From Methanocella paludicola SANAE (GTDB lineage: Archaea > Halobacteriota > Methanocellia > Methanocellales > Methanocellaceae), in NCBI RefSeq assembly GCF_000011005.1, contig NC_013665.1, positions 2,891,501 through 2,955,500 on the forward strand: DNA of 64,000 bases, in the 5' to 3' direction. Below the pieces are notes generated by a model. The model had not been told where the DNA came from. It did not search any database and saw only the letters and a list, made by a program, of their open reading frames with translations. The stretch's first letter is position 1; every line of letters starts with the position of its first letter. Positions 9,610-38,058 of the stretch are shown here, in pieces. Made by a program: the position numbers and the translations under genes.

Positions 9610-10014
9610 TTACCTGACGAGGAGCCGCCAGGCGGCGCAGCCGAGCACGATGAAGCCGCCGGCGAACGCCAGCAAAGGGTTCCTCAGCAGGTCGATGCTG
9701 TCCGTGGCAAGGAGCATGCCGACCGCGATCATCAAGAGCCCCACGGCGATCCCCGTCATGTCTAGCACCGACACCTTCTGCACGGGCGCTTTTTTATTTG
9801 TGGCCGCCTCGAGCGCCGCCACCCGGCCCTCGAGAGATGCGTGCGGGCCTTCCGGCCCGGCGGGCACGAACTCGGTGACGTCGCAGGCGCTCGCGTCCCC
9901 GGAGAACCGCATCTCCAGCGCGCTCAGCCGGCCGCCGAGGCCCCTCGTCCGCTGCTCCAGCGCCATGATCCGCCCGACGACGTCGGGCCCGGACTCCTTA
10001 TTCGTAGCGTCCAT
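9610..10014 (-). CDS. Small membrane protein with coiled-coil N-terminus
   Basis: 134 residues from ATG 10014 (GTG at 10023 is the alternative). The N-terminal half has two heptad-like segments (VVGRIMALEQRTRGL and LEGRVAALEAAT). The C-terminal half has two hydrophobic helices separated by a short DSIDLLRN loop, ending WRLLVR. Function unknown. It follows the pattern of a membrane-tethered coiled coil and is divergent from the pilin-like cluster. Confidence 0.6.
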   Translation of the reverse strand: MDATNKESGPDVVGRIMALEQRTRGLGGRLSALEMRFSGDASACDVTEFVPAGPEGPHASLEGRVAALEAATNKKAPVQKVSVLDMTGIAVGLLMIAVGMLLATDSIDLLRNPLLAFAGGFIVLGCAAWRLLVR

Positions 10015-10026
10015 AGTAACCACATG

Positions 10027-10074: not shown

Positions 10075-10503
10075 ATGAAAAAAAGTATGCTGGACGAGAA
10101 GGGAGCCGACTTCCTCGGGATGAGGCTCGTAGTGGTGCTCATGGCAGCCTTTTTGCTGCTGTCCGTGGCCTCCGCCTATGTGGAAGCGTACGTCGAAGGG
10201 GCCTCGAGGGACCAGGCGAGGCGGGAGGCGTTCCGCATATCGAGCCTTGCATCCGCCGAGTTCGCCTCGGGAATACCCGGTGGCTCCGCTGAGATATCGG
10301 TGAGCGTGCCGGGCTGCGTGAGGCACATCGATTTTACGGGCAATAATTATAGCATCGAGTTCAGTGACGGCTCCTGCGAAGTGCATGCAGCTGGCTGCCC
10401 GTTCATTCCCGCCAGGCTGTGCCCGGGCGAGCACCGCCTGGAATTAAAGGTCGTGGATAACGGCACATACGCCGTCTCCATGGAGGCTCAGGATGCTCGA
10501 TGA
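10075..10503 (+). CDS. Pilin-like membrane-anchored protein 1 of appendage cluster
   Basis: 142 residues. The N-terminus has a short charged stretch LDEKG, then a hydrophobic helix (RLVVVLMAAFLLLSVASAYV), then a small extracellular beta-rich domain with four cysteines that could form disulfides. ATG 10087 (MLDEKG) is a good alternative start: it lies ~29 bp after the TATA element and matches the next gene's MLDDRG. This architecture fits a class III-type prepilin or Tad-like pseudopilin. It overlaps the next gene by 11 bp and leads a six-gene co-directional cluster. Confidence 0.72.
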   Translation: MKKSMLDEKGADFLGMRLVVVLMAAFLLLSVASAYVEAYVEGASRDQARREAFRISSLASAEFASGIPGGSAEISVSVPGCVRHIDFTGNNYSIEFSDGSCEVHAAGCPFIPARLCPGEHRLELKVVDNGTYAVSMEAQDAR

Positions 10504-11080
10504 CAGGGGCGTGGACTACGGCGTCCTGACGGGCATAGGACTTGTCATCGCGTCGGCAGTCGTGCTGCTGTTCGTATTTTCCATGGTCAGGTCCTCCGCT
10601 TCGGCCGACGTGGCGATCGCGCTCGAGTCGGCCGCATCGGAGGTGTGCGGGGACATCGAGACCGTGGGCTCTATGGCCGTGCCCTATCGTGTAGAGCGCT
10701 TCTACCGGCTGGACGGGGCCGAGGTCCGCGCGAGCTCTGGATACGTGAACGCCTCCTGCGGGAAGGACGTGTTCTCCAGGCCGTTCGCCTTCCGCATCGT
10801 GCCGGGGAGGTATGAGGAGAACGGCTCCCTGCTCTGGAACGGCTCGGCCGGGATGCGGGAGTACCTGAACGCCACATTCAACGCCACGGGCACCAGGGAG
10901 AGGCCGGTCGACGACAACCATACGAAGGCTTTAACAACGCTCATGGACCGGGCGAGCACGAGCACGTTCACCAGCCCCGTGGAGGTGCCCCACGGGAGGC
11001 CCCTGATCATCGAGAAGACGTTCATATACGCCATGAACGGCGTGGAGGCGGAGCCATATGTGCTCGTTTACGCGGGATGA
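10493..11080 (+). CDS. Pilin-like membrane-anchored protein 2
   Basis: 195 residues starting MLDDRGVDYG, followed by a hydrophobic helix (LTGIGLVIASAVVLLFVFSM) and a ~150-residue extracellular domain with several Asn-X-Ser/Thr sequons (NAS, NGS, NAT) and two cysteines. The charged-Gly-hydrophobic N-terminus repeats in genes before and after it. From memory it resembles the haloarchaeal DUF7287/7288-type proteins that neighbour secretion ATPases; that match needs a profile search. It overlaps both neighbours. Confidence 0.7.
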   Translation: MLDDRGVDYGVLTGIGLVIASAVVLLFVFSMVRSSASADVAIALESAASEVCGDIETVGSMAVPYRVERFYRLDGAEVRASSGYVNASCGKDVFSRPFAFRIVPGRYEENGSLLWNGSAGMREYLNATFNATGTRERPVDDNHTKALTTLMDRASTSTFTSPVEVPHGRPLIIEKTFIYAMNGVEAEPYVLVYAG

Positions 11081-11492
11081 GCGGGGCGTGACGGAGCCCT
11101 ACACGGACCTTCCGGCGCTGGGCATCGTGGCCGTGGGGCTCATCGTGTTCTTTTATCTCGTGCTCTCGGCGTACTCGTCGTACGCCTCCTCCGCCTATTA
11201 CGCCTCGGTGAAGGGCGACCTGAGGAGCGTCGCCCGCGCCGTCGCCGCCGACCCCGGGCTCACGTACGCCCCTTATACGTTCGATGCCCGGAAGCTGGAC
11301 AACGCGTCATTAAGCAGTGCAGATTACGGGTACCAGGCCGTCCGGATGACGGTCGATGCCCCGGGGCGCCACTGGGCATGGGGCCATCAATCGAGCGGAA
11401 GGTCGGCAGGCTGTATGCTCCCCGTCTCGGTCAGGCTGAACGACGCCAGGTGCATCGCAGGCACTCTCAAGGTCACCATGTGGGAGCGATAG
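11058..11492 (+). CDS. Pilin-like membrane-anchored protein 3 (DUF7285-like)
   Basis: 144 residues. After TRDERGVTEPYTDLPALG comes a hydrophobic helix (IVAVGLIVFFYLVLSAY) and a short extracellular domain. The RG-x-x-EP stretch before the helix is like the N-termini of haloarchaeal DUF7285 proteins (from memory). It overlaps the previous gene by 23 bp and ends 1 bp before the next, so the cluster is almost certainly translated from one message. Confidence 0.68.
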   Translation: MCSFTRDERGVTEPYTDLPALGIVAVGLIVFFYLVLSAYSSYASSAYYASVKGDLRSVARAVAADPGLTYAPYTFDARKLDNASLSSADYGYQAVRMTVDAPGRHWAWGHQSSGRSAGCMLPVSVRLNDARCIAGTLKVTMWER

Positions 11493-11493
11493 A

Positions 11494-12585
11494 ATGGATG
11501 ACGGGTACTCCACCATCATCGACGCCATCATGTTCCTGGCCATGGTGTCCGCCTGCGCGATCATCCTGTCCCCGGCCATCGCCGGAGGCGAGAGCCGGCG
11601 GGCCGTGGCAGACTCGAGCCTCCGGGCCCTGGCGTCATCGTGCCTGGCATCGGTGGAGACCGGCCGCGTTGACTACTTCGAGTACCGCATCCTGGGCGAC
11701 CGCGTGGATGCCGTCGCGGAGAGCTGCGGCATCGACCCCGGCGCCTGGCTCTACAGGGACGTGACGAAGGCCGTGCTGGGCCGGGGAAACCGCCACAAGT
11801 CCGCCATGGAGATGGCCGCAGAGGCCGCCGCGTGCCAGTTCACGGTCCGCATGGGAGGGGACACGCTCACGCTCAACCCGCTCACTGCCGAGTACCGCAG
11901 CGGCGTAGAGCGGGCCGTGGACGGGCAGGCCAGGGAAAGGCTCGACGGGCGTTATGCGTATAATTTTACCCTGCGCTGGGTCCCTTTCGCCGGAGTGCCC
12001 TTCGAGGGCTCCGTGGAGTGCGGCAAGCCCGTCCCCGTCGGCGCTGCCTCCGCCTCCACCCTGGTCACCATGCCGTATCAGGCCGGCGTCACCGGGAGCC
12101 GCATCGAGGAGGCCATATCCCCGGAGCTCTCGGGCATCGAGAACGCCACCCGCGAGTACAGGGCCGGGGGCCGGGACGATGTTTACAGGGAGCAGCTGAG
12201 CGCATATCTTAGTAGCTCATTGAAGAAGTCCAGCAGTCTCATGGTCGAAGAGGTACTGGGGAACACGCTGTACCGGGTAGTGCCGGCGAGCGACGTGGGG
12301 AACCCCCTGGCCATGCTCGCCTCCTTCTCGGACAACGACACCGTATCCGCCGGCCCGGTACTGCTGAACGCGAGCGATGACCTGGAGGACGTCTTATGCG
12401 ACATGATCGTGCAGTACAGCTCGGAGCCCCTGGACGGCCTGGCCGATAAGATCATCGAGGGCGTCGATGACGGCTCGATAGAGCCCGGAGATGAGAGGGA
12501 TATCATAGTAAACTGGCTTTGCACGAGATACAATCCATCGGCGGCACGGGCCACGCTGAGCGTATGGGTGACCGCCGATGCTTAA
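11494..12585 (+). CDS. Membrane-anchored surface protein 4 (DUF7284-like)
   Basis: 363 residues. It begins MDDGYSTIIDAIMFLAMVSA, a helix like that of haloarchaeal DUF7284 proteins (from memory), followed by a ~330-residue extracellular domain. The middle holds an ATP-free alpha/beta region with four or five cysteines, and many Asn sequons. No C-terminal membrane helix is seen, so it is probably N-anchored with the body outside. It overlaps the giant gene downstream by 8 bp. Confidence 0.7.
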   Translation: MDDGYSTIIDAIMFLAMVSACAIILSPAIAGGESRRAVADSSLRALASSCLASVETGRVDYFEYRILGDRVDAVAESCGIDPGAWLYRDVTKAVLGRGNRHKSAMEMAAEAAACQFTVRMGGDTLTLNPLTAEYRSGVERAVDGQARERLDGRYAYNFTLRWVPFAGVPFEGSVECGKPVPVGAASASTLVTMPYQAGVTGSRIEEAISPELSGIENATREYRAGGRDDVYREQLSAYLSSSLKKSSSLMVEEVLGNTLYRVVPASDVGNPLAMLASFSDNDTVSAGPVLLNASDDLEDVLCDMIVQYSSEPLDGLADKIIEGVDDGSIEPGDERDIIVNWLCTRYNPSAARATLSVWVTADA

Positions 12586-15532
12586 GGACGACGGCGCCAG
12601 GGTACCGTTCGCCGTCATCGGCGTGCTCCTGATCTTCGTATCCACTGCGGCGTCGGCGTACCTGATGTCCATGCAGTCGCTGGGGGTCACGAACGCCGTC
12701 GAGGACGAGAGGGAGGCCGAGCTCAACGACGCGCTGGCCTGCGCGAAGGCCGACATCGACAGCGCCCTCAACTACGCCTGCATATACGCGGAGGAGGACA
12801 TCGGAGAGCGGCCTATCGTCAACTCCACGATGGACCCCGGCGAGGCAAACCTGCTCCGGCTCGAGCGCATGGCGGCCCGGAACCTGACGCAGTACCTCGA
12901 TGCCAACTATCAGGGCAGCTTCGTCTACGGCGACTACCGGATCGACGCCTCGATGTGCGGCAACGTCAGCGTCGAGCCCCTCTACATGAACCTGAGCCGC
13001 GTCGTATACCACCCCGTGCTCCAGTGCCAGGTCCGCTACCCGGCATATTACGTGGCCTCGACGCCCATACGCCTTCACATCACCCGCCCGGGCAGCACGC
13101 TCGACCATGCCGAGGAATACGAGGCCAGGACGCTGGTCACCTCGCGGTACCCGCTCCTGGAGAGCCTCACGGAGGAATATGAGGCGCGCCTGAACGGCAC
13201 GGTTATGCTAGCCGACGCGACGGCGGCCTCGTTCGCGTACACCTGGGCCAGGGGGTACTGCCAGTACTACTCGGGCGAGCCCGCGAACATCGTGGACAAC
13301 GACGACCTCGCGCTCATCGCCAACGCCGCGTCGCTCCTGGAGCAGGGGTGCGAATACAACTCGGTGGACCCGGTGAGCCTGGCGTCCCTGGTAAAGCACA
13401 CGTACGACAACACGCGCTCCACGGAGGACGTGCTCGAGGATAACGACCTCTCGTACATCAACCAGTACAACTTCAGCAATACCTCTAAAAAGCCCCTGCC
13501 AAGGGATGAGGTGCCCGACGAGTACTCTTTTAACGGGGACGAGATCGTGGATAAAGCGCTCAGGAAAGCCATCGCCGACCCGGTGAGCCGCTACGACGTG
13601 GAGAAGGCCTACGGGTGCCGCATGTACGTCACGGTCCAGAGGAGGGCCGTGTCCGAGCGGTATAACGACACGGGAAGCATCTGCCGGGAATCGTATCCCC
13701 TTGCCTCGAACGAGAACGGCACAGGCCCCTTCTTCCGCGAGGTGTGGAAGGCCTGGGAGAACGATACGTGTGGCAGAGGATGGACCGAGGCCGTCACCAT
13801 CGACTACGTCATGGAGGACTGCTCGCTCCTCCACGCGTATAACGACGTGCGGACGCCCCATAAAGAGGCCTCGTACGCGTCCGGGGGCAGGGCTTACGTC
13901 GACTCGAACCTCGTGAAGGCGGTGGACGGGTACCACGGCGTCGTTCCCGTCCAGGACGTCCTGTTCGACAGGGCAGGGTACCCGTCGGGCAGCTCAGGGC
14001 CGACGGTCGAGATAGCGTGCGAGCACAATGAGTGGGTGGAGAACGCCTCAGTGTCGGAGCTGAGAGCGCTGGCGCCCGGGATAAAAAAGGGCATATCAGT
14101 AACGCTCAAGGCCTCCGATTATGGCTCATATGACGAGATGATGGCCGGGGCATACGGAAGGATGCAGGACCAGTTCAGGCGTAACTATACCGCCTACCTG
14201 TCGGAGGGCGATTACCGGAATGATGGCATATTCAGGGGCTGCGGAGCGAAGTACGTCTTCTACAAGCGGGTGGCGTTCCTGGACGACATCGGGAACGCGC
14301 TGGACGCCTCGGCGAACGCCTCAGAAGAGGTAAATAAAAAGATCGACAAACAGCTAAAAGACTACTCCCGCGACATGAACTCGTCCACGCTGAAGGACAA
14401 CGCCCGCAGCTCAAAAAGCTTCCTGGACGACACGAAGATGTTCATACCGTTCGGGCTTAACATGACCCTCGCCGGAGGCGAGGGCAAGTACGACCCGTAC
14501 AAGTGGGAGGAGAACGTGTCCCTGGCCATCGACCAGCGCCCGAACTACCTGTACGTTGATAATTATACGGACCCCGAGACCGGCTATACGGTGAGGCCGC
14601 TCAAGGTCAGGAACGTGTGCGCATTCGCCCTACCCACGGACGTGGTCGATACGGGGGAGGCGACGGGGGCGGTGCTCGACGGCATCGACGCGGTGGCGGG
14701 AGCGGCCGGAAGGCTGGCCAACGATACCATCACGGCCGAAACGTCGGAGCTCGTGGACAACGTCTCGGCTGAGGCGAAGCAGGCGATCAAGGACGAGATC
14801 AACGACGCCCTTGTACACGACCAGGACCTGCAGGGCCAGGTCACCAGGGAAGACGTGAACAGCTCTGTCGAAAGCGCGTTCAATGACCGCACGCCGGGGC
14901 AGGCCGTCAGGGACATGAGGAACGGCACCCTGCAGAGGGAGATCGCCGGGGACCTCGCGGGGAAAGCGAAGGCCCGTGCCGAGAGCGAGCTGGCGAAGAG
15001 GTCCGACGAGTACGTGGACGCGTACGGCGACTATATCGCCGGCAAGGCCGAGGAGGCCATCCTGGGGGCCGAGGAGCGCGCCGTCTCGTACGTTATAAGC
15101 ACGCTAAGCGACAGCGTAAAAGGCGTTTTTAAGGACTTCATGGCCGAGGCGGCGGACAAGACAGGGGACGCTGCGATAAGCGCAGCGCTCAAGCGCATCC
15201 CTATGGGCCTGCCCCTGCTGCCTCCGTGGGGATGGTGGGCGACCATGAACCTCTGGTATATCGAGATCTACGGGGAGATACCGTACCTGGCCGTCTACGA
15301 CACTGATAGCGAGCCCATCCCGGACCCAGTCCTGGGACAGAGGGCCACCGTGTACGTGCGCCGCCCGATGCTCGACATCAGGGAGGGGGAAATAATGGGG
15401 AGCAACGAGCCCGTTCGCTTCCACATCCGGACCTGCACCTTCATCGTGGTCCCGCCCGGGCCCCAGGGTATCGGCGATAAGCTGGGCGGCTGGGACGAGA
15501 AGAGCCCTGGCTTCGACGAGGTGCCCGCATGA
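12578..15532 (+). CDS. Giant membrane-anchored surface protein 5, 984 aa (DUF7286-like)
   Basis: 984 residues. The N-terminus MLKDDGARVPFAVIGVLLIF is a charged stretch, Gly and one membrane helix, close to haloarchaeal DUF7286 proteins of similar length (from memory). The extracellular part is rich in Asp, Tyr, Asn sequons and scattered cysteine pairs. Residues ~690-880 are alanine- and charge-rich and probably helical or coiled (SELVDNVSAEAKQAIKDEIN and following). The C-terminus returns to a compact beta domain around IEIYGEIPYLAVYD. It could be the adhesin or tip, or a periplasmic-like scaffold, of the appendage. Overlaps both neighbours by 4-8 bp. Confidence 0.72.
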   Translation: MLKDDGARVPFAVIGVLLIFVSTAASAYLMSMQSLGVTNAVEDEREAELNDALACAKADIDSALNYACIYAEEDIGERPIVNSTMDPGEANLLRLERMAARNLTQYLDANYQGSFVYGDYRIDASMCGNVSVEPLYMNLSRVVYHPVLQCQVRYPAYYVASTPIRLHITRPGSTLDHAEEYEARTLVTSRYPLLESLTEEYEARLNGTVMLADATAASFAYTWARGYCQYYSGEPANIVDNDDLALIANAASLLEQGCEYNSVDPVSLASLVKHTYDNTRSTEDVLEDNDLSYINQYNFSNTSKKPLPRDEVPDEYSFNGDEIVDKALRKAIADPVSRYDVEKAYGCRMYVTVQRRAVSERYNDTGSICRESYPLASNENGTGPFFREVWKAWENDTCGRGWTEAVTIDYVMEDCSLLHAYNDVRTPHKEASYASGGRAYVDSNLVKAVDGYHGVVPVQDVLFDRAGYPSGSSGPTVEIACEHNEWVENASVSELRALAPGIKKGISVTLKASDYGSYDEMMAGAYGRMQDQFRRNYTAYLSEGDYRNDGIFRGCGAKYVFYKRVAFLDDIGNALDASANASEEVNKKIDKQLKDYSRDMNSSTLKDNARSSKSFLDDTKMFIPFGLNMTLAGGEGKYDPYKWEENVSLAIDQRPNYLYVDNYTDPETGYTVRPLKVRNVCAFALPTDVVDTGEATGAVLDGIDAVAGAAGRLANDTITAETSELVDNVSAEAKQAIKDEINDALVHDQDLQGQVTREDVNSSVESAFNDRTPGQAVRDMRNGTLQREIAGDLAGKAKARAESELAKRSDEYVDAYGDYIAGKAEEAILGAEERAVSYVISTLSDSVKGVFKDFMAEAADKTGDAAISAALKRIPMGLPLLPPWGWWATMNLWYIEIYGEIPYLAVYDTDSEPIPDPVLGQRATVYVRRPMLDIREGEIMGSNEPVRFHIRTCTFIVVPPGPQGIGDKLGGWDEKSPGFDEVPA

Positions 15533-16062
15533 GGATACGGGCGCTGGCGCTGGCAGCGGTCATCCTGGTCTCGATGGCAGGGGACGCGGAGGCCAGGCAC
15601 GTCATCAAAGCCTATTATAACGGGCAGGAGGCCACGGTCACGGGCGTCGTCCTCAAGGTAGGCGAGCCGTTCACGATCGACCTTTATGTTACCCCGGACC
15701 GGTACGCGACGGTGTCCGCCCGCCTGAGGGAGCCCGGAGGAGGGCTCGAGTCTTACGGGCGCATCTCGGGCGATCCTGTGGATATAGTGCGCAAGAAGGG
15801 CGGCACCGGTGATACCGTGCACTTCCAGTGGGTGCTGGCCCCCACGGACGCGTGGGCCGGGGGCACGGCGCCCCTGGACATCCAGTATAACGTGTGGGGC
15901 GAGACCATGGACGGGGACGTGCAGGGATGCTTTACGGCCGTGGAGGCGTACATCTCTCCTGTAAAATATGGGCCGCCGCTCTGGTCACGGGAGGGCGCCC
16001 ACCTGCCACATAGCGGCGTCCGCCGCGCCATCCGGTGCCGCGCGCCATCGCTTATCACGTAA
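15529..16062 (+). CDS. Secreted protein 6, sarcinarray-like domain
   Basis: 177 residues with a cleavable signal peptide (ALALAAVILVSMAGDAEA), then a beta-sandwich-like domain with VVLKVGEPFTIDLYVTP and REPGGGLESY. This resembles the sarcinarray/MAST-type surface domain of methanogens (from memory, not verified). Unlike its neighbours it has no N-terminal anchor helix. The C-terminal ~35 residues are Arg-rich and unlike the rest, which could mean an old frameshift or natural tail. It overlaps the giant gene by 4 bp (ATGA) and ends the cluster. Confidence 0.62.
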   Translation: MRIRALALAAVILVSMAGDAEARHVIKAYYNGQEATVTGVVLKVGEPFTIDLYVTPDRYATVSARLREPGGGLESYGRISGDPVDIVRKKGGTGDTVHFQWVLAPTDAWAGGTAPLDIQYNVWGETMDGDVQGCFTAVEAYISPVKYGPPLWSREGAHLPHSGVRRAIRCRAPSLIT

Positions 16063-16243: not shown

Positions 16244-17446
16244 TCACCTACCCTTCCGGCTCAGGAACAGGTACAACCCGAGGAGGCACAGGATGCCCAC
16301 TGCCAGTGACGCCAGCAGGGCAGCCCACTCGATGGGGATCCCTGAGGGCTCCGATGTCGTGGCGCTCGCAGTCGCGGAAGCGCCCACATCGAGCACCATG
16401 GGAACGAAGGCCACGTTCCTTGCGTCGTCCTCCCCGCCGTTCGCCATGAGCATGTCCGGGTAATACAGGGGCTTCTCTTCCGTCCGGTCCTCTGCAGCCC
16501 CGTATTCCGCCACGGCCACGATGTCCTTCTTCGCCTGGATCGGCTTGCCGTCGTCCGTGGTCGGTGCCACGCCCGAGAACGCGTATCGGCCCTGATCGTT
16601 CGTCGTGGCAGAGACGGTCCTGCCATCTGTCACCATCGGGACGAAGGTGGACCCGTTATCGGACCGCTGGTAGAGCGCCACGGTCACGCCGGGCAGGGGC
16701 TGGCTGTCTTTTGTCAAGACGATGCCGATGACCCTGTTCTCGTGGTGGGCCGGCGCCTCGGCGGGGTCCGGGCTCGAGGAGGGAGAGGTCAGCGGGAGGA
16801 TGATGCGGGTATCGAGCACTTCGGTCACGGCTGCGTTGGGAGTGACGTTCACGGCCTTGCGGGCCGACTCGTAGACCACTCCGTTCTCCCGATGCTGAGC
16901 GTATAAGATGTAGCTGCCCGCGGGGGCGTAGAACGTATAGCTGGCCTTGCCGTCCGTCCTGTCGGCGAACTGGTAGTACCTGATGCCGCTATCGGGGTCC
17001 GCCAGGTAAACGATCCCCGGGATGAAGCTGGCGGCATTCCCGGCGCCGGCCTGGATGGCGCCGTATATGTAGCCGTAGACTGGCTCAGGATAGTTCGAAA
17101 AACTTGTCTCGTTGCTGTTGATGCACTGGATGCCTTTTGAGGGATACCATCGAGTGTAGTACGAGGGAATCTCGTATGTCTTCCCGCCCCGCGTGAGGTT
17201 CACCCTCACCGAGACCGTGTCAGTATCCGATACCACGTTGACGAAGTCGTAGTTGCCGTTCTCGTTCGTATAGTTGATCGATATGGTCTTATGCGCGTTA
17301 TCGATCAGTGTCACGCAGGCTCCCTGCAAGGGGCCGCCGTATCGGTCGAGCACCTGCCCGGAGAGAGAAAAGGGCGTGCCGGCGGCGGAGGCCGGGGAGA
17401 CAAAAAGCACGACCACCGCGAATATGAGCAAATAATACAGTCGCAT
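16244..17446 (-). CDS. Surface protein with carboxypeptidase-regulatory-like domains
   Basis: About 400 residues with a signal peptide (LIFAVVVLFVSPASAA), an N-terminal CarboxypepD_reg-like domain (FSLSGQVLDRYGGPLQGACV), a long middle domain, a Pro/Ser linker near residue 225, a second such domain (VIGIVLTKDSQPLPGVTVAL near 243), and a C-terminal membrane helix followed by SRKGR. It is therefore exported and anchored at its C-terminus. ATG 17446 is chosen over ATG 17452 because a GGTG stands seven bases before it. A surface or cell-wall role is likely; no enzyme motif is seen. Confidence 0.75.
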   Translation of the reverse strand: MRLYYLLIFAVVVLFVSPASAAGTPFSLSGQVLDRYGGPLQGACVTLIDNAHKTISINYTNENGNYDFVNVVSDTDTVSVRVNLTRGGKTYEIPSYYTRWYPSKGIQCINSNETSFSNYPEPVYGYIYGAIQAGAGNAASFIPGIVYLADPDSGIRYYQFADRTDGKASYTFYAPAGSYILYAQHRENGVVYESARKAVNVTPNAAVTEVLDTRIILPLTSPSSSPDPAEAPAHHENRVIGIVLTKDSQPLPGVTVALYQRSDNGSTFVPMVTDGRTVSATTNDQGRYAFSGVAPTTDDGKPIQAKKDIVAVAEYGAAEDRTEEKPLYYPDMLMANGGEDDARNVAFVPMVLDVGASATASATTSEPSGIPIEWAALLASLAVGILCLLGLYLFLSRKGR

Positions 17447-17511
17447 TAACATACACCAAGAAAAAAAATAAAAAGGGAGCTTAAATAGCTTATATCACGA
17501 TCGGTTAACCC

Positions 17512-30103: not shown

Positions 30104-30580
30104 TTAATATATTATCAGGTATTTTTCGTTCAGGCTTCGATCGTACTCGTACTCTATGGTTATTTCGTACCGCCCGCCTCCCTCGATGGCCCTGTGCTTA
30201 TTTGATGGGACCATGACGCCTCCCTTTTCCACTCCCTCCCTGAGCCTGACCTGGCCGATGGCTATGGCCTTCCTGCTGCCCCGGACCTCATAGATCATAG
30301 TGCCCTCATCCTCTTCGGAGCCGAACGTCACGTTCGTGCCGGGCGGAAGGGAGAGCGTTGTTCTCTTCGTGGCTCCCTGAGGCGAGGCGGGGTCGAGAAG
30401 GTCCCTGGGGGCCGATGCCATGAGAGCCCTGCAGTCGTTTGATAGCTCGAGAAGCCGGGAATCCACGGAAGCCGTACTCACGACCGGCTCCGCACGGCTC
30501 AGCCCGAGGCCGGCGAGGCATGCGATGGCCGCCAGCACGGCCATGGACGCGGCCATGGCCACGGGCAGCGAGTCTACCAC
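30104..30580 (-). CDS. Pilin-like/TadE-like small anchored protein
   Basis: 158 residues from GTG 30580, which overlaps the prepilin peptidase stop by 7 bp; the longer open frame upstream is antisense coding shadow. The N-terminus VDSLPVAMAASMAVLAAIAC is a hydrophobic helix starting almost at residue 1, followed by an extracellular beta-rich domain (SLPPGTNVTFGSEEDEGTMI). Position and layout fit a minor pilin or TadE-like protein of the appendage. It ends the minus-strand operon, convergent with glnA. Confidence 0.66.
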   Translation of the reverse strand: MVDSLPVAMAASMAVLAAIACLAGLGLSRAEPVVSTASVDSRLLELSNDCRALMASAPRDLLDPASPQGATKRTTLSLPPGTNVTFGSEEDEGTMIYEVRGSRKAIAIGQVRLREGVEKGGVMVPSNKHRAIEGGGRYEITIEYEYDRSLNEKYLIIY

Positions 30581-31095
30581 GGCACGGCCCCCAGGAGTAC
30601 GACTGATGAGACGCAGGCGGCCAGCAGGGCAGGGCCCATGGGCTCCTCCTGCTCCCGGAGAGAGGCGATGTCCTCGGCGGACAGGGGGCCGCCCTTGCCG
30701 GCATGTCTCGATTTCACGGCGGGCCGGTATACCCCGTGCTTCAGCAGGAGCACGGCCGCCAGGCAGAGCGAGTACGCCGCGATGAAGTATAGCGGGGGAT
30801 AGGCCGGCGAGGCCATTAAGAATAGCCCCAGGACGAGCTTGGCGTCCCCGCCTCCCCACATTCGGAGCTTCCAGAGGCCATACACGTACGCGTACGACAC
30901 GATACACGTCAGAACGGCAGGCCCCAGGGGGTAACCCCGGGCCGCCATCAGCGCCAGACCGGCCGCGATGAGCGGGATCGTGAGCCGGTTAGGTATGCGC
31001 ATGGTACGGTAGTCGATGACGGCGGCCGCGGCGACGGCCAGCCCCGCGAGCACGATGCAGGCCAGGTCAATCCAGGTAAACGACAGGCTCTCCAC
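30574..31095 (-). CDS. Prepilin peptidase, A24 aspartic protease family
   Basis: 173 residues with about six membrane helices. The two catalytic aspartates are in VIDYRTMRIPNRL (near residue 28) and [13 protein letters not shown] (GxGD motif near residue 82). Archaeal members (FlaK/PibD/EppA) cut class III signal peptides of archaellins and pilins just before the hydrophobic helix. The pilin-like proteins of this window are natural substrates. It overlaps the upstream ATPase gene by 29 bp. Confidence 0.88.
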   Translation of the reverse strand: MESLSFTWIDLACIVLAGLAVAAAAVIDYRTMRIPNRLTIPLIAAGLALMAARGYPLGPAVLTCIVSYAYVYGLWKLRMWGGGDAKLVLGLFLMASPAYPPLYFIAAYSLCLAAVLLLKHGVYRPAVKSRHAGKGGPLSAEDIASLREQEEPMGPALLAACVSSVVLLGAVPW

Positions 31096-32176
31096 CCCCG
31101 TGCTCGCTTTCCCTCGGGCGGATCTTGATGACGTGGCAGGACTCTGTGGTGTCGTCGACCACGATGGCGGCGCCCCTCCCGGCGCCCAGGCGGGCCATGG
31201 CCTCCTGTATGGGCTCTTTCACGTACGTGGGCCGGGCCGACTCGAGCGCCTCCAGGTCGTCCCTCAGCGTCAGCCTGTGGCAGACGATCACGTCGGCCTG
31301 GGAGAGCACCTCCTTGCCCAGTGCGGAGGGCCGCTGGGTGGCAAGCACCAGGGACAGGCCGGGCTGCCTTCCCTGGCGGAGCCACTCGTTCGTGAGCACC
31401 CGCCCCGCCCTGGTATCCCCGTCCATGAACATGTGGGCCTCGTCGATGAGCAGCCAGACAAGGGGCTTTTCCCTTTTGCCGTTCTCGGCCCTGCGTGCCT
31501 CGACCCGGATATCGTACAGCGCTCTGGCCAGCGACGCCACGATGGCCGATCTTATCCGGGGCTCGTGGCCGTATCCGCTCAGGTCCAGTATGCTTATTGA
31601 GCCGGGCTTCAGCAGCGCGTCGAACGTGGCGCTGCCCGAGAACAGGCCCCAGGACGCCACCATACGCAGCAGGCCCGACAGCGTGCTCCCGGGCTTCACC
31701 CTCTTTACCAGCCCCTCTACCTCGAACGGCCCGTTGTCCATGGCGCCCATCAGATCGGCGCCGTGCTCGCTCAGAGGCTCGATGCCCAGGAGCTCGCAGT
31801 AGTCGTAGAACGATAGCGAGCAGGATGGTATTTCCAGGGGCAGGGCGCCCTCGCGCCGGTGCGCCGGAGGCGCGAACACCCGTATGCCTTCCCAGCCTTT
31901 CATACAGGCGAACACGCCCATCGTGTCCACGACGATAACGCAAAAGTTCTTCCTGATGGCGAGGGGCAGCCGGGCGAACTCCTCGATGATGACGCCCATG
32001 GTGTATGATTTGCCGTAGCCCCGCTTGCCGCAGATCAGCGCCGCGTGGGGCTTAAGCACGTCGAGGTACACCCCGGCACCCTGGGACCCGTCCAGGGCAA
32101 GGTACCTGCCCACGTAAAGCACCCCATCCTCCCCTCCGTCTCTCCTTCCAAGCAGATAGCGCTTCTCACAGGACAT
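31067..32176 (-). CDS. HerA/VirB4-like ATPase of the appendage locus
   Basis: 369 residues. Walker A is ICGKRGYGKSYTMG near residue 50, Walker B is WLLIDEAHMFMDG near 245, and an ATQRPS motif follows near 280, giving the HerA-FtsK core. HerA proteins with NurA resect DNA ends, but here no nurA is present and the gene overlaps the prepilin peptidase, so a role in the secretion/pilus locus is at least as likely. Its own promoter (TATA-like stretch in 32177-32215) precedes it. Confidence 0.75.
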   Translation of the reverse strand: MSCEKRYLLGRRDGGEDGVLYVGRYLALDGSQGAGVYLDVLKPHAALICGKRGYGKSYTMGVIIEEFARLPLAIRKNFCVIVVDTMGVFACMKGWEGIRVFAPPAHRREGALPLEIPSCSLSFYDYCELLGIEPLSEHGADLMGAMDNGPFEVEGLVKRVKPGSTLSGLLRMVASWGLFSGSATFDALLKPGSISILDLSGYGHEPRIRSAIVASLARALYDIRVEARRAENGKREKPLVWLLIDEAHMFMDGDTRAGRVLTNEWLRQGRQPGLSLVLATQRPSALGKEVLSQADVIVCHRLTLRDDLEALESARPTYVKEPIQEAMARLGAGRGAAIVVDDTTESCHVIKIRPRESEHGGGEPVVYLD

Positions 32177-32215
32177 ACTTAATTACAATAAATTGAAAAT
32201 AAATAAAGCTATCCC

Positions 32216-32854
32216 CTATGTGACGGGTGCCTGGTTAATGAGAGCTTTCACTTCCTCGTCGCTCAGGTCAGGGAAGCTCTCGTAGTAGCTCGCCACGGCG
32301 AACGGGCCGTACGGCTGCACGGCCAGGCCGACCACCTCGTCCACCTCCTTTTCGAGCCGCTCTACTGAGGATTCGGGGCTGCAGGGCACGGCCACGATGA
32401 CCCTTTTCGGATGCTCCCTCATGACGGCCCTCACGGCGGCGATCATGGTATACCCCGACGCCAGGCCGTCGTCCACGACGATGACGTTCTTGTTCTTTAG
32501 TTCAGGCAGGGGCCTGTCGCCCCTGTATTCCCTTGCCCGGCGCCGTATCTCGGCCAGCACCTCTTTAGATATCCGCTCGATATCCCCGACGGACAGCCCG
32601 CAGTATGCCACGAGCCGCTCGTTCAGTACGATGGTGCCGTCGGGGGCGATCGCGCCGAACCCGGCCTCGGGGTCGGACGGGATGGGCAGCTTCCTCGGGA
32701 TGATGAGGTCCAGGGGCACTTCGAGCCGCCTCGCCACCTCGTATCCAACGGGCACCCCTCCCCGTGGTATTGCCAGCACGATGGCGTTGTGCCGGTAAAT
32801 GAGCAAGCGCTCTGCCAGCCGCCTTCCCGCGTCGCGCCTGTCCCTGAAGATCAT
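32216..32854 (-). CDS. Phosphoribosyltransferase domain protein
   Basis: 212 residues. The PRPP-binding loop is NVIVVDDGLASGYTM near residue 125, and the N-terminal part has IPRGGVPVGYEVA, the pattern of stand-alone prokaryotic PRTase-like proteins sometimes fused to dienelactone hydrolase. Base substrate is unknown. It overlaps the PfpI gene by 4 bp (ATGA), so they form one transcript. Confidence 0.82.
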   Translation of the reverse strand: MIFRDRRDAGRRLAERLLIYRHNAIVLAIPRGGVPVGYEVARRLEVPLDLIIPRKLPIPSDPEAGFGAIAPDGTIVLNERLVAYCGLSVGDIERISKEVLAEIRRRAREYRGDRPLPELKNKNVIVVDDGLASGYTMIAAVRAVMREHPKRVIVAVPCSPESSVERLEKEVDEVVGLAVQPYGPFAVASYYESFPDLSDEEVKALINQAPVT

Positions 32855-33417
32855 TGGGCCCTTGCCATCCCCGCGGCCTGGCCTGCGCCCGCGCCCTGGA
32901 GCGCCCGGAGCACGGCGTCGCAGAAGTACCCGAGGTCCGTGGGCTGCCTGGAGAATATGTACTGGGCGTCGGTGATCAGCGGCTCGTTCACGTACGTAGC
33001 CCCCGCGTCCTCGATGTCCACCACGAGGGACTTCCAGCCCGTGGCCCTCTTCCCCTTCAGGAGCCGGGCCGTGATGAGTATCTGCACGCCGTGGCAGATG
33101 GCGGCTACTGGCTTACCCGTGCGGTCGAAGTCCTGCACGAACCTGATCACTTCGGGGTATATGCGGATGTGGTCCGGCCCCTGGCCGCCCGGTATCACGA
33201 GACAATCGTAGTCGTCGGGGCTGAGGTCCTTGAAGGCGATATCGGCGGCGACGGGCATGCCGTGCTTGCCTGTGATGGTCTTGCCCTTTTCAAGGCCCGC
33301 GACCTTGACGTCGGCACAGGCCTCATACCTCAGCCTGTATAGCGGGTACATCAGCTCCATGTCCTCGAAGCCTTCTCCTGCGAGCATAACGACTCTTTTT
33401 CCTTTTAACTCCTCCAT
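32851..33417 (-). CDS. DJ-1/PfpI family protein
   Basis: 188 residues. The nucleophile Cys lies in VAAICHGVQILI near residue 109, with the family Glu in MLAGEGFEDMEL near residue 15 and PGGQGPDHIR near 76. The family includes proteases, glyoxalases/deglycases and chaperones. The C-terminal tail is Ala/Gly-rich. It leads the minus-strand pair with the PRTase gene and is divergent from the secretion ATPase gene. Confidence 0.86.
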   Translation of the reverse strand: MEELKGKRVVMLAGEGFEDMELMYPLYRLRYEACADVKVAGLEKGKTITGKHGMPVAADIAFKDLSPDDYDCLVIPGGQGPDHIRIYPEVIRFVQDFDRTGKPVAAICHGVQILITARLLKGKRATGWKSLVVDIEDAGATYVNEPLITDAQYIFSRQPTDLGYFCDAVLRALQGAGAGQAAGMARAQ

Positions 33418-33541: not shown

Positions 33542-35650
33542 ATGCTCGATGCCCTCAGAGCCCTGTCAGGGCTGACAATAAAAGCGGCGGAGCCCGCATG
33601 CCCCCTGGCGTTCAGGCAGGGAAGGCACGGGACTGACGCTGTGGCGGACTGCAGCAGGTGCCCCGGCGGGTCCAGCCTCTCCGACCCGGGATGCCGGCTT
33701 CCCCTCGTCAAAAGCCTAGCGGGAAAAGCGTGGATGGACCGGCTATTGCTCGAGAAGAACATCGTCCGCGAGTATGACGCCCTCGGGTCGCTCCAGGCGC
33801 TGGTGTCCTCGTACGAGAACATGAGGCTCCACGCCTCCACGCTCCGGACGTACGGATGCGGCCAGTGCGACAGGCAGAGGAAGGCCGTGGTGGGCTCGGC
33901 CATAGAGGAGGCCGTGGCCGCCCCGGGGGATATATGCCGCGTCATCGCCTCGATCCCCGTCCGGCCAGGGAAGGGCGTGCCCGAGTGCAGCCTCTGCATG
34001 GAGCGCTACTCGGCCTTCCTGAGCGGCATGGCGGATATCGGCCGGAGGCTGTCGTACAAGGATCCGCCTCCATATGTCAGGCCCCGGTTCTCCAGCTCCA
34101 GGATATGGATGGAGCCCCCGAAGGGGGCGGTTTTCGTGCGCTCGTACGAAGTGGCCGGGGATGCCTTCACGCCCCCGCTGCACGTCACTCTCTACGAGCT
34201 GGCGGAGAGCCTGGAGAAGATGTACTTCATCGTGCCGTGGGAGTACTGCATGGATGAGGAAGACATCGCTATTCTTACAGAGGCCAGGCAGAGGCTCCTC
34301 ACGAAACGCCCGGAGACGATGGAGTTCATGGAATCGGCGAACATGCGCCCGCTGTTTGCACGGTATGGCAGGGAGGCCATTTCGGCGACGGCGAGCTCTG
34401 GCAGGGCATGGATCGGCGAGGCGAGGCTCGAGAGGCTCACCGCCGCCCTGGTGAAGTACACGTGCGGCCTTGGCATCATTGAGGACGTCCTCAGGGACAC
34501 CCACATCGAGGACGCCTACGTCAACGCCCCGGTCGGCTCCACCCCCCTTCACCTGGTCGTGGATGGCGAGGAGTGCACGAGCAACGTCTTCCTCTCGGAG
34601 GCGGACGTGGAGTCGATGATCTCCCGGCTTCGGGCCATATCGGGGAGGCCGTTCTCGGAGGCCAGCCCCGTGCTGGACATGGACCTGGGCGAGTTCAGGA
34701 CGAGGGTGTCGGTCATCGGCGACCCCCTGTCAAGGGGGCTTGCCTACGCGTTCAGGCGGCACAAGGCCACGCCCTGGACCCTGGCCCAGCTCGTCTCTAA
34801 GGGCATGCTCACGCCCTACGCCGCCGGCCTGCTCTCGCTCCTCGTGGACGGGCAGTCATCCATCCTGGTCACGGGCACCCGGGGGGCGGGCAAAACGTCC
34901 CTGCTTGGGGCCATGATGCTCGAGATACCACAGGGCTACCGCATTTTGGCCATCGAGGACACGCCCGAGCTGCCGCTCGAAGACATGCAGCGCTGTGGCT
35001 GGAAGGTGCAGGGGATGGGGACGAGGTCCGCCGTGTCGGGGTCGGAGGCCGAGTTCCAGGCGTCGGACGTGCTCAGGGCGGCGCTAAGGCTGGGCGAGTC
35101 GGCGCTCATCATCGGCGAGGTGAGGGGCGCCGAGGCCCGGTCGCTGTACGAGGCCATGCGTGTGGGCGCTTCCGGCAACTCGGTCATGGGCACCATCCAC
35201 GGCTCCTCCTGCAGGGACGTATACGACCGCGTAGTCCACGACATAGGCGTCCCCCCGGCGTCCTTCAGGGCGACCGACATCGTCGTCGTCTGCTCGACCG
35301 TGAGAAAGTGTGGCGGCCACTCGAGAGAGCGGCGCGTCATACAGGTCGCCGAAGTCTCGAAAAGCCGCTGGGATGACTCCGGCGGGGCTTTTAACGACCT
35401 CCTCCTGTACGATGCCACGGAAGGCTCTTTGATCGCGACGGACCTCATCGACACGGGACGCTCTGAGGCCCTCCAGGGCATCGCCGGCAGGTGGGGCCTG
35501 CCGATCAGGGCCGTGAACGGGGAGATCGAGGCCAGGGCGCAGCTCATAAAGCAGGTGGCGGGCACGATGTTCATGGAGGCCCCGGAGTACGCGAGGTGCC
35601 TGAACGCCTACCGGGCCATGCGCGAAAAGGGGGGCGCCGGTGGAAGCTGA
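33542..35650 (+). CDS. Type II/IV secretion-type ATPase (TadA/GspE-like) with Cys-rich N-terminus
   Basis: 702 residues. C-terminal motor: Walker A TGTRGAGKTS near 443, Asp box AIEDTPELPL, Walker B region IIGEVRGAEA, and GNSVMGTIHG with the catalytic-site His. It powers assembly of type IV pilus-like fibres. Unusual is the N-terminus: cysteines at 20, 37, 40 and 51, then CxxC at 106/109 and CxxC at 149/152, which could form two metal or Fe-S sites. Related haloarchaeal ATPases also carry N-terminal cysteines (from memory). It overlaps the next gene by 11 bp. Confidence 0.88.
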   Translation: MLDALRALSGLTIKAAEPACPLAFRQGRHGTDAVADCSRCPGGSSLSDPGCRLPLVKSLAGKAWMDRLLLEKNIVREYDALGSLQALVSSYENMRLHASTLRTYGCGQCDRQRKAVVGSAIEEAVAAPGDICRVIASIPVRPGKGVPECSLCMERYSAFLSGMADIGRRLSYKDPPPYVRPRFSSSRIWMEPPKGAVFVRSYEVAGDAFTPPLHVTLYELAESLEKMYFIVPWEYCMDEEDIAILTEARQRLLTKRPETMEFMESANMRPLFARYGREAISATASSGRAWIGEARLERLTAALVKYTCGLGIIEDVLRDTHIEDAYVNAPVGSTPLHLVVDGEECTSNVFLSEADVESMISRLRAISGRPFSEASPVLDMDLGEFRTRVSVIGDPLSRGLAYAFRRHKATPWTLAQLVSKGMLTPYAAGLLSLLVDGQSSILVTGTRGAGKTSLLGAMMLEIPQGYRILAIEDTPELPLEDMQRCGWKVQGMGTRSAVSGSEAEFQASDVLRAALRLGESALIIGEVRGAEARSLYEAMRVGASGNSVMGTIHGSSCRDVYDRVVHDIGVPPASFRATDIVVVCSTVRKCGGHSRERRVIQVAEVSKSRWDDSGGAFNDLLLYDATEGSLIATDLIDTGRSEALQGIAGRWGLPIRAVNGEIEARAQLIKQVAGTMFMEAPEYARCLNAYRAMREKGGAGGS

Positions 35651-37511
35651 TCACTATGCGGAAGCCTGCCGGTCGTCCTTCAGGACACTCTCCGCGCTCT
35701 TCGGCCGGGACAGGCTCGACGCGTACTCGGGCCGCTATGCGAGTAAAGACCTTGTGGCGTGCATCGGGTTCGCGGGCCTGGAGATCAAGCCGTCCGAGGC
35801 CTTTTCGCTGGCATTCATGGCGGCCATGGCCTCGCTCATCATTGTAGCGGTAACGGGAATGGCGGCCTTCGCCCTGGGCCTGCTGGATACGGGGATGGCC
35901 GTGGTGCTGGTGGTATGCGGTGGCGTGCTGCCGCTGCTCGTGTACGTGTACGTGGGGGAGTACCCGAAGCGCAGGGCCGCCTACATGAAGGTCCATTCAC
36001 TGGGCGACGTGCCCGAGGTCATCAGCTACATCGTCATGGCCATGAAGCTCACCCCCAACATCGAGCTGGCCCTCAAGTTCGCCGCCTCCAACTCGAAGAG
36101 GCAGCTCGCGAAGGACGTGAAGAAGCTGATGTGGGGCCTGCAGGCGAGGGCCTATGACAGCCTGGACATGGCGCTGGGCGCGTTCGCGGAGGAGTGGGGC
36201 GGGTACAGCGAGCACTTCAAGCGGGCCGTGTTCCTTATAAAGAGCGCCGCGGACGAGAGGGACGAGGCCATGAGGACGATCACCCTCAACCGGGCCCTGG
36301 ACGTGGTGCTCGCGGGCACGAAGGGCATGATGCAGTCCTTCTCGAGCGCCCTGCACTCGCCCACCCTCATCCTCTACTCCATTTTCGTCATGGTGCCCCT
36401 GGCCCTCGTGGCCATGCTCCCCGCCGCCGCCATCATAGGCCTGCGGATTAATTCGCTCGAGCTGGCGCTGCTCTACGACGGGCTGTTCCCCCTGGCAACG
36501 CTCGTCTACGCCCACTCCATCCTCATGAAGAGGCCGGCCGCCTTCACGCCGCCCGACATTCCGGCCATGAAGGAAAGCATCCCCAGGTGGGCCTGGGCGC
36601 TCATCGCATGCGCGGTCGGGGCCGCCACGGCATCGCTGTACTTCTTCCCGGCCGGAATTCCCGTCCCCGGCTCGATCTTCCTGGCATGGAGCGTCACTGC
36701 TGTCATATCGATATACTGCCTGGGCGTGTACACGCCCTATAAAAAGCTGAGGGACGACCTCAGGAAGATGGAGGACGAGTTCGCCGACTCGCTGTTCGTC
36801 CTCGGCCGGCGCATTTCGGAGGGGAGGTCCCCGGAGGATGGATTCGCGTACACGGCCGCCATGACCGCCGGCACCTCGGTCGGAAAGGCCTACGCCCGGG
36901 CTGCATACAACATACGGTGCCTCAGGACGACGCTGAGCGACGCGGTGCTGTCGCCCGAGTACGGCGCCTTCTCGGACGTGTACTCCGACCGCATCAGGGC
37001 GACAGTGTGCATGCTCGTGGAGACCTCGGGCAAGAGCGGCGAGATCGCGGGCAACTCCGTCGTGCGGCTGGCCGATCACCTGAAGGAGCTACAATCGATC
37101 GAGGACGACGTCCGGAAGATGCTCTACACCATGACCAGCATGCTCAAGACGACCTGCGTGGTGTTCGCCCCGTTCATAGGGGGCATCACCCTGGCGCTGT
37201 CCCGGTCCGTATCGGAGGTGGTTGCCCGCACGATGGCCGGGCTGAGCGAGATGCCCGAGGGGGCCAGGCAGTACTTCCCCATGATGCCCGAGTTCAGCGC
37301 TCCCCTGGTGTCCAACGACGAGTTCGTCCTTATCATCGGGATCTACGTGATCATGCTGGTGCTGATATTGTTGAGGTTCGTGGACGGCATCGAGCATGGC
37401 GACGACCGGTACGAGTTCATGTACAGCGTCGGGACGGTGCTCCCCATCGCCATGGCCGTGTTCACCATCACGACGGTGTTCGCCGATTCATCGTTCGGCA
37501 CCATGTTTTAG
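35640..37511 (+). CDS. TadC/GspF-like platform membrane protein
   Basis: 623 residues from GTG 35640. Two T2SSF-type halves are visible: the first with membrane pair near 55-110, a cytoplasmic EYPKRRAAYMKVHSLGDVPE region and helices at ~230-290; the second repeats this after ~310. Pattern matches archaeal TadC-like or ArlJ/PilC-like platform proteins, which bind the ATPase and extrude subunits. Directly follows the ATPase gene with an 11-bp overlap, so the pair is the motor-platform core. Confidence 0.85.
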   Translation: MEADHYAEACRSSFRTLSALFGRDRLDAYSGRYASKDLVACIGFAGLEIKPSEAFSLAFMAAMASLIIVAVTGMAAFALGLLDTGMAVVLVVCGGVLPLLVYVYVGEYPKRRAAYMKVHSLGDVPEVISYIVMAMKLTPNIELALKFAASNSKRQLAKDVKKLMWGLQARAYDSLDMALGAFAEEWGGYSEHFKRAVFLIKSAADERDEAMRTITLNRALDVVLAGTKGMMQSFSSALHSPTLILYSIFVMVPLALVAMLPAAAIIGLRINSLELALLYDGLFPLATLVYAHSILMKRPAAFTPPDIPAMKESIPRWAWALIACAVGAATASLYFFPAGIPVPGSIFLAWSVTAVISIYCLGVYTPYKKLRDDLRKMEDEFADSLFVLGRRISEGRSPEDGFAYTAAMTAGTSVGKAYARAAYNIRCLRTTLSDAVLSPEYGAFSDVYSDRIRATVCMLVETSGKSGEIAGNSVVRLADHLKELQSIEDDVRKMLYTMTSMLKTTCVVFAPFIGGITLALSRSVSEVVARTMAGLSEMPEGARQYFPMMPEFSAPLVSNDEFVLIIGIYVIMLVLILLRFVDGIEHGDDRYEFMYSVGTVLPIAMAVFTITTVFADSSFGTMF

Positions 37512-37575: not shown

Positions 37576-37584
37576 GTGATATAC

Positions 37585-38058
37585 ATGCGCAGCAAAGGTT
37601 TCAAGGGCGACGAGAGGGGCGTGGAAGGCCTCCCCGTGCGCCTGATCGTCGTGCTGGTCGTGGGCGTGATCGCGCTCTCGTCCATGGTGGCCGCCGTGAA
37701 CAGCTTCAAGCCCCCGAAGACGCTGACCGCCGCAGTGACCGAGGTGAGCAGCAAGGACGGCAATCTCCTGCAGGTCAGTAACTCGGGCGAAGGCGCCGTT
37801 ACGAAGACGTGGACCTGCTATGTGAACGTGACTGACGATAAGGGCAACCCGGTGAGCGGCGCCAGCGTGATCGTCCACGGCCTGGGAGGCGCAGGCTCGG
37901 GCGTGACCAACACAAAAGGAGTAGCGTACATCTCCAAGACGAACGACATCAAGCTCAACGCCAACCAGAACATCGGCTACATGACCCTGGAGGTCAACGC
38001 CCCCGGGTTCTACCAGTACAAGAACGAGAACGCGCTCGCCGTGGTGAGGGTGAGCTAG
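37585..38058 (+). CDS. Pilin-like protein with Ig-like extracellular domain
   Basis: 157 residues from ATG 37585. The N-terminus FKGDERGVEGLPVRL is followed by a hydrophobic helix (LIVVLVVGVIALSSMVAAV), fitting a prepilin processed near the Gly before it. The extracellular part is a single CarboxypepD_reg/Ig-like beta domain (YVNVTDDKGNPVSGASVIVH, then TNTKGVAYISKT). The DERG stretch is shared with the protein at 11058. It is the best candidate for the major subunit of the fibre. Confidence 0.75.
   Translation: MRSKGFKGDERGVEGLPVRLIVVLVVGVIALSSMVAAVNSFKPPKTLTAAVTEVSSKDGNLLQVSNSGEGAVTKTWTCYVNVTDDKGNPVSGASVIVHGLGGAGSGVTNTKGVAYISKTNDIKLNANQNIGYMTLEVNAPGFYQYKNENALAVVRVS

Follow-up and report, generated by a model that had tools for sequence, protein, structure and literature searches.

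The closest described counterpart of the locus is the haloarchaeal pilB2/C2 regulon, which adjoins cetZ2 and comprises seven predicted pilins and one surface protein (PMC9856176). In its passages on subclade 4F, the 2016 census (Makarova 2016, PMC4858521) describes an ATPase with a Cys-rich N-terminus together with a coiled-coil component. The role of the haloarchaeal PilB2/PilC2 system is given as unknown in the relevant passages of both publications (PMC4858521, PMC9856176), and no filament of a system of this kind is reported in the cited literature; therefore, a pseudopilus or a role in secretion is still compatible with the genes. Minor pilins form a tip complex that starts filament assembly (PMC10191384), and the authors of the VARTIG study found no close counterpart of their system outside Thermococcales (PMC8416519).

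Comparison with the PilB2/PilC2 regulon revealed that the Methanocella genome shares an ATPase with a Cys-rich N-terminus, orthologous by pairwise comparison, a TadC protein, and, with almost unchanged gene order, DUF7311-like, DUF7285, DUF7284 and DUF7286 proteins; a weak match makes 9610–10023 a candidate for the coiled-coil component. The motor genes lie elsewhere, the second protein of the cluster is not recognisably DUF7283, and a sarcinarray gene has been added. The kind of system is already known from haloarchaea, going by the passages that treat it in PMC4858521 and PMC9856176; what is new here is the assignment of methanogen genes, their dispersal over several loci, the tie to the sarcinarray family and a variable tip in relatives, and the 2016 census may already list the methanogen genes. 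The comparison would bring DUF7284, DUF7285, DUF7286, TIGR04209 and two unnamed prepilin families, formerly of 'unknown function', under one shared role.

Layout and families of the six-gene cluster

The stretch of DNA analysed (hereafter the window) covers 64 kb of a single contig of 2,957,635 bp. Six + strand ORFs, which the initial annotation had described as overlapping or abutting, were confirmed at 10075–16062, with overlaps of 11, 23, 8 and 4 nt between neighbours and one gap of 1 nt. Their products are here called P1 (10075–10503, 142 aa), P2 (10493–11080, 195 aa), P3 (11058–11492, 144 aa), P4 (11494–12585, 363 aa), P5 (12578–15532, 984 aa) and P6 (15529–16062, 177 aa). P1–P5 are prepilin-like: each begins with a charged stretch and Gly (P1 MKKSMLDEKG, P2 MLDDRG, P3 MCSFTRDERG, P4 MDDG, P5 MLKDDG) followed by one hydrophobic segment, just as had been proposed for five of the genes, whereas the leader of P6 is an ordinary Sec-type one. 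A loose prepilin-like motif was found in 5/6 cluster genes and in 4/59 other genes of the window (Fisher p = 9e-5), one of the latter four being the prepilin-like gene at 37576. The strict FlaFind-type motif, [DERK][GA][ALIFQMVED][ILMVTAS], was passed only by P3, and P1, P2, P4 and P5 fit the loose version. The initial annotation also spoke of giant surface proteins in the plural; its fifth protein indeed has 984 residues, but it is the only giant of the cluster. No enzyme matched in the profile searches, in agreement with the earlier view that the cluster encodes none.

Profile searches assigned P3 to DUF7285 (Pfam PF23956, E 1.2e-9, above the gathering cut-off), P4 to DUF7284 (PF23955, E 5.5e-11), P5 to DUF7286 (PF23957, E 9.8e-64) and P6, a Sec-secreted MAST-domain protein, to the sarcinarray family (NCBIfam TIGR04209, 152.8 bits, cut-off 45), and gave no family in Pfam or NCBIfam for P1 and P2. 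Profiles built from methanogen members were then compared with profiles of haloarchaeal members. P1 paired with haloarchaeal DUF7311 at 85% probability (E 5.8e-6; its other haloarchaeal pairings were below 1%), which makes it a distant DUF7311 relative, P3 with DUF7285 at 95% and P4 with DUF7284 at 98.8%; the remaining methanogen–haloarchaea pairings were all below 2%. P2 occupies the position of haloarchaeal DUF7283, but was ruled out as a member of that family (0.6%); it resembles P1 (79%, profile-profile) and is conserved across Methanocellales and Methanosarcinales. The DUF7284–7288 series named in the initial annotation was thus recovered in part, as DUF7284, DUF7285 and DUF7286, and the rest of the cluster consists of a DUF7311 relative, an orphan family and a MAST/sarcinarray protein. 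A search of PDB sequences with the DUF7286 profile returned nothing below E 0.19, a plasmid tblastn with haloarchaeal DUF7286 as query gave no match, and a scan of the collection with a Methanocellales-only DUF7286 alignment found one locus, in a Methanocella MAG.

DUF7287–7289 were rejected as members of the six-gene cluster; they occur in another genome (G002), in which a second five-gene prepilin-like set (L021:1380-5046, − strand) adjoins the homologous cluster. That set consists of DUF7289, a DUF7266-like protein, a Big_1/DUF7261-like protein, DUF7288 and DUF7287, and probably belongs to another type IV pilus. Divergent from the Methanocella cluster lies a 137-aa gene (9610–10023, − strand) whose product has a coiled coil and hydrophobic segments. 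It is a candidate DUF7310 counterpart, with a weak Pfam match (E 0.05, below the cut-off; E 0.089 for its homolog), and its counterpart adjoins the prepilin block likewise in two other genomes (G001 and G002). Just downstream of the cluster, a gene on the − strand (16244–17452) encodes a protein of 402 aa that is predicted to lie at the surface; it contains carboxypeptidase-regulatory-like repeats and has a hydrophobic segment at its C-terminus.

Motor genes and gene order across archaea

The motor genes, together with a prepilin peptidase candidate and a candidate major pilin, were located at 30.6–38.1 kb of the window. The PilB-type secretion ATPase (33542–35650, + strand, 702 aa; T2SSE E 1.2e-20) has several Cys in its first 55 residues (CPLAF, DCSRCP, GCRLP). 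It shared 35–39% identity over 440–500 aa with haloarchaeal ATPases encoded beside DUF7283–7286, whereas the genome's other two comparable T2SSE-type ATPases shared about 25% with the same proteins; by this pairwise comparison, it is the genome's best counterpart of the haloarchaeal ATPase. The TadC/PilC-type platform protein (35640–37511, + strand, 623 aa) had no Pfam T2SSF match, and comparison with homologs that follow the ATPase gave 62–63% in Methanocellales, 40–42% in Methanosarcinales and 27–31% in haloarchaea. The next gene encodes a 160-aa prepilin-like protein with a beta domain (37576–38058, + strand; leader KGDERG, then VEGLPVRLIVVLVVGVIAL), which is kept directly after ATPase and TadC in 3/3 other Methanocellales (60–70%) and is a candidate for, and probably is, the major pilin of the system; the major pilin of subclade 4F is arCOG02981, and the protein here is a candidate by position. 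An A24-family prepilin peptidase candidate (30574–31095, − strand) contains a PF01478 match inside its ORF (G000:C1:2922254-2922541, E 2.1e-14), one of two A24 peptidase matches in the genome and the one that lies within the window. The region from this peptidase to the ATPase (30574–33417, − strand) also holds genes for a HerA-like ATPase, a phosphoribosyltransferase-like protein and a DJ-1/PfpI protein, and similar genes occupy the same region in other Methanocellales.

Analysis of gene order showed that haloarchaeal loci, whose genes were predicted with simple ORF criteria, run DUF7310, DUF7311, PilB ATPase, PilC/TadC, DUF7283, DUF7285, DUF7284 and DUF7286. In Methanocellales the cluster is retained but the motor genes are not part of it, and DUF7286 is directly followed by an additional gene, sarcinarray. 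Methanosarcinales have it in three loci, namely a P1–P4 block, DUF7286 with sarcinarray, and ATPase–TadC; the DUF7286–sarcinarray pair lies at another locus or divergently near the P1–P4 block. In five Methanosarcinales loci (L169, L170, L171, L173 and L174) the P1–P4 block is intact and flanked by hisS and a ribosomal S15-like gene. This synteny is shared by haloarchaea, Methanocellales and Methanosarcinales, which argues that the cluster is an old unit rather than a local accident. Among 66 genomes, which were chosen by DUF7286 status (44 with, 22 without) and are not phylogenetically independent, a strong match to the middle region of the ATPase (at least 75 bits) was present in 41/44 genomes with DUF7286 and in 0/22 without it, where the best score was 39 bits (Fisher p = 1e-14, uncorrected for shared ancestry). 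DUF7284 was distributed in the same manner (40/44 versus 0/22). The initial annotation had named a lack of DUF728x or pilin-fold matches and of conservation with a secretion ATPase as grounds for refuting its proposal; since both the profile matches and the conservation with the ATPase in these three groups were found, its proposal stands in this respect.

The sarcinarray gene was absent from all haloarchaea tested. Outside Methanocellales, the gene preceding a sarcinarray gene is nearly always DUF7286 or a 3′ copy thereof; an exception is genome G014, which has a sarcinarray gene (L073) but neither DUF7286 nor a matching ATPase. P6 scores far above the TIGR04209 cut-off, but the P5–P6 pair of Methanocella is single-copy, with no tandem array, and the alignment showed that P6 is without the C-terminal hydrophobic segment and basic tail of most relatives. 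A frameshift hiding this anchor was excluded, as no such segment occurs in any of the three frames. Because the hydrophobic segment is missing, P6 may be released rather than anchored.

Structural models and possible function

Confident AlphaFold models of the two largest proteins contain long N-terminal helices: residues 5–77 (73 residues) in P5 (pLDDT 84, pTM 0.71) and residues 5–56 (52 residues) in P4 (pLDDT 84, pTM 0.74), the latter followed by strands (58–192), a helical lobe (201–344) and a last strand (350–359). In the models, both proteins thus have the general type IV pilin layout of a long N-terminal helix and a head with beta strands. Foldseek searches of whole chains against the PDB gave best E values of 0.34 (P5) and 0.07 (P4), none of the matches being a pilin, and there was no significant PDB match; P4 and P5 are therefore candidate members of the pilin fold. 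The likeness to class III prepilins claimed in the initial annotation is accordingly supported by the prepilin-like architecture of the models, but not by the strict leader motif, which four of the five leaders fail, nor by a match to a solved pilin fold. Alignments further revealed a conserved leader of P5 ([GA] followed by RVPFAxIG) and a conserved C-terminal module.

We consider it moderately probable that the six genes supply the minor pilins and the tip of a type IV pilus resembling the haloarchaeal PilB2/PilC2 system, a type that fits subclade 4F, and that this module is situated apart from its motor on the chromosome. P1–P5 would enter the membrane via the N-terminal helix, and the A24 peptidase from 30.6 kb would presumably cleave them at the Gly, and the ATPase (33.5 kb) and TadC (35.6 kb) would push them out ahead of the major pilin, probably the 37.6-kb protein. 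P1–P4 would prime the filament, and P5, in a putative tip position, would cap it, with its 900-residue outer body and with the conserved C-terminal beta module as the exposed end. P6 would be secreted separately and would pair with this end, presumably in physical contact, as a ligand, cap or surface partner; the system could thereby serve in adhesion or recognition. Among the features that count against this assignment, about 18 kb containing unrelated genes separates the ATPase from the cluster, and the leaders of P1–P5 have no clear Glu5. Compared with the tip complexes of bacterial type IV pili and type II secretion systems (PilHIJK or GspHIJK, with PilC/PilY1), the cluster likewise encodes four minor prepilin-like proteins together with one very large protein, and assembly is likewise expected to start from the tip. 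In contrast to the bacterial complexes, the large protein here carries a pilin-like helix itself and there is no outer membrane; no sequence match or PDB-level fold match links the two.

Two other assignments place some or all of these proteins outside a filament tip. Instead of a long filament for adhesion, P1–P5 could assemble into a short pseudopilus whose task is to expel a substrate; P6 or the product of a gene at another locus might be that substrate. The helical lobe of P4 between strands, which resembles the layout of GspK, speaks for such a pseudopilus, and so does the number of components, four minor prepilins and one large protein as in a GspHIJK-type tip set (PMC10191384); however, the locus holds no dedicated substrate enzyme, and the separate prepilin-like gene after ATPase–TadC suits a filament, so that we regard a pseudopilus as quite unlikely. 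P5 and P6 might instead be S-layer-associated or envelope-anchored proteins that share the pilus regulon without belonging to a filament. An S-layer-like protein is noted in 4F loci in the passages of Makarova 2016 on them (PMC4858521), relatives of P6 resemble envelope-anchored proteins in having a hydrophobic segment and a basic tail at the C-terminus, and the DUF7286–sarcinarray pair of Methanosarcinales often lies apart from the other cluster genes. This placement nevertheless appears unlikely for a protein with the conserved [GA]/RVPFAxIG leader and 73-residue modelled helix of P5, whose phyletic pattern tracks that of the ATPase.

Possible tip–partner cassettes in Methanosarcina-type relatives

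One genus of the collection (represented by G236), which is probably Methanosarcina, as the named control M. acetivorans matches, carries arrays composed of a full-length DUF7286 gene and a sarcinarray gene, after which come truncated copies of the 3′ part of DUF7286, every one accompanied by its own sarcinarray gene. The truncated copies encode neither the N-terminal helix nor a signal peptide. For 32 tip–partner pairs, we compared the tip, defined as the last 78 residues of DUF7286, with the body, defined as the 107 residues just before the tip, and with the neighbouring sarcinarray protein. Tip distances were correlated with the distances between the adjacent sarcinarray proteins (Mantel r = 0.62, p = 5e-4), but not with those of their own body (r = 0.10, p = 0.09). 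The tip data rejected the body tree by a delta lnL of 619, whereas the sarcinarray tree cost them 28 lnL (SH p = 0.375, but AU p = 0.012). Ten orphan tips were classed as certain, leaving out two main genes (one edge-cut, one frame-broken) and two ambiguous cases. In 10/10 of these, the nearest relative outside the own genome was a full-length gene, and identity to the own main gene was 44–66% in the tip and 68–93% in the body. The end of DUF7286 therefore recombines apart from the protein body in these relatives, and shares its history with the neighbouring sarcinarray protein. The pattern is explained either by tips that move together with their partners among gene copies and across lineages, or by homogenisation of the bodies.

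It is conceivable that the 3′ copies are ordinary debris of tandem duplication, with no functional exchange and no bearing on the Methanocella pair. They contain neither the N-terminal helix nor a signal peptide, a single pair is all that many genomes carry, and tip and sarcinarray adjoin, so that their shared history could reflect linkage alone. Yet the orphan tips are under purifying selection (dN/dS 0.11–0.25 in seven pairs tested), the certain ones are closest to full-length genes elsewhere while diverging from the main gene of their own genome more in the tip than in the body, and the body tree is rejected by a wide likelihood difference, which together make debris an improbable account. 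Exchange of tip and partner as a cassette suggests a variable recognition surface. Going further, DUF7286 could, through its C-terminal end, form with the adjacent sarcinarray protein a polymorphic pair whose members are matched to each other and serve in recognition at the pilus tip, with unexpressed 3′ cassettes swapped into the full-length gene to give a switchable specificity for self/non-self, partner or virus, and with Methanocella as the single-allele form; we put this forward tentatively, as possible but rather doubtful. An interpretation of the arrays as Rhs/CDI toxins was discarded, since the variable end is homologous throughout and the partner has a signal peptide.

VARTIG resembles the arrays of the Methanosarcina-type relatives, though not the Methanocella locus, in having a large surface protein whose variable C-terminal end undergoes recombination and whose partner genes lie downstream. 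It differs in that the protein there is an Ig protein, whereas here DUF7286 and MAST proteins are involved and are linked to the motor of a type IV pilus, and the relatives have truncated 3′ copies beside the main gene. If the cassette reading were true, methanogens would possess a recombining polymorphic surface tip, a type of variation that the VARTIG authors found only in Thermococcales (PMC8416519), and recognition of self/non-self or of a partner would be testable in a genetically tractable methanogen genus. Short DUF7286 proteins consisting of the C-terminal end only, alternating with sarcinarray genes, were also observed outside the Methanosarcina-type genus, at two loci of another genome (L057 and L058, G191).
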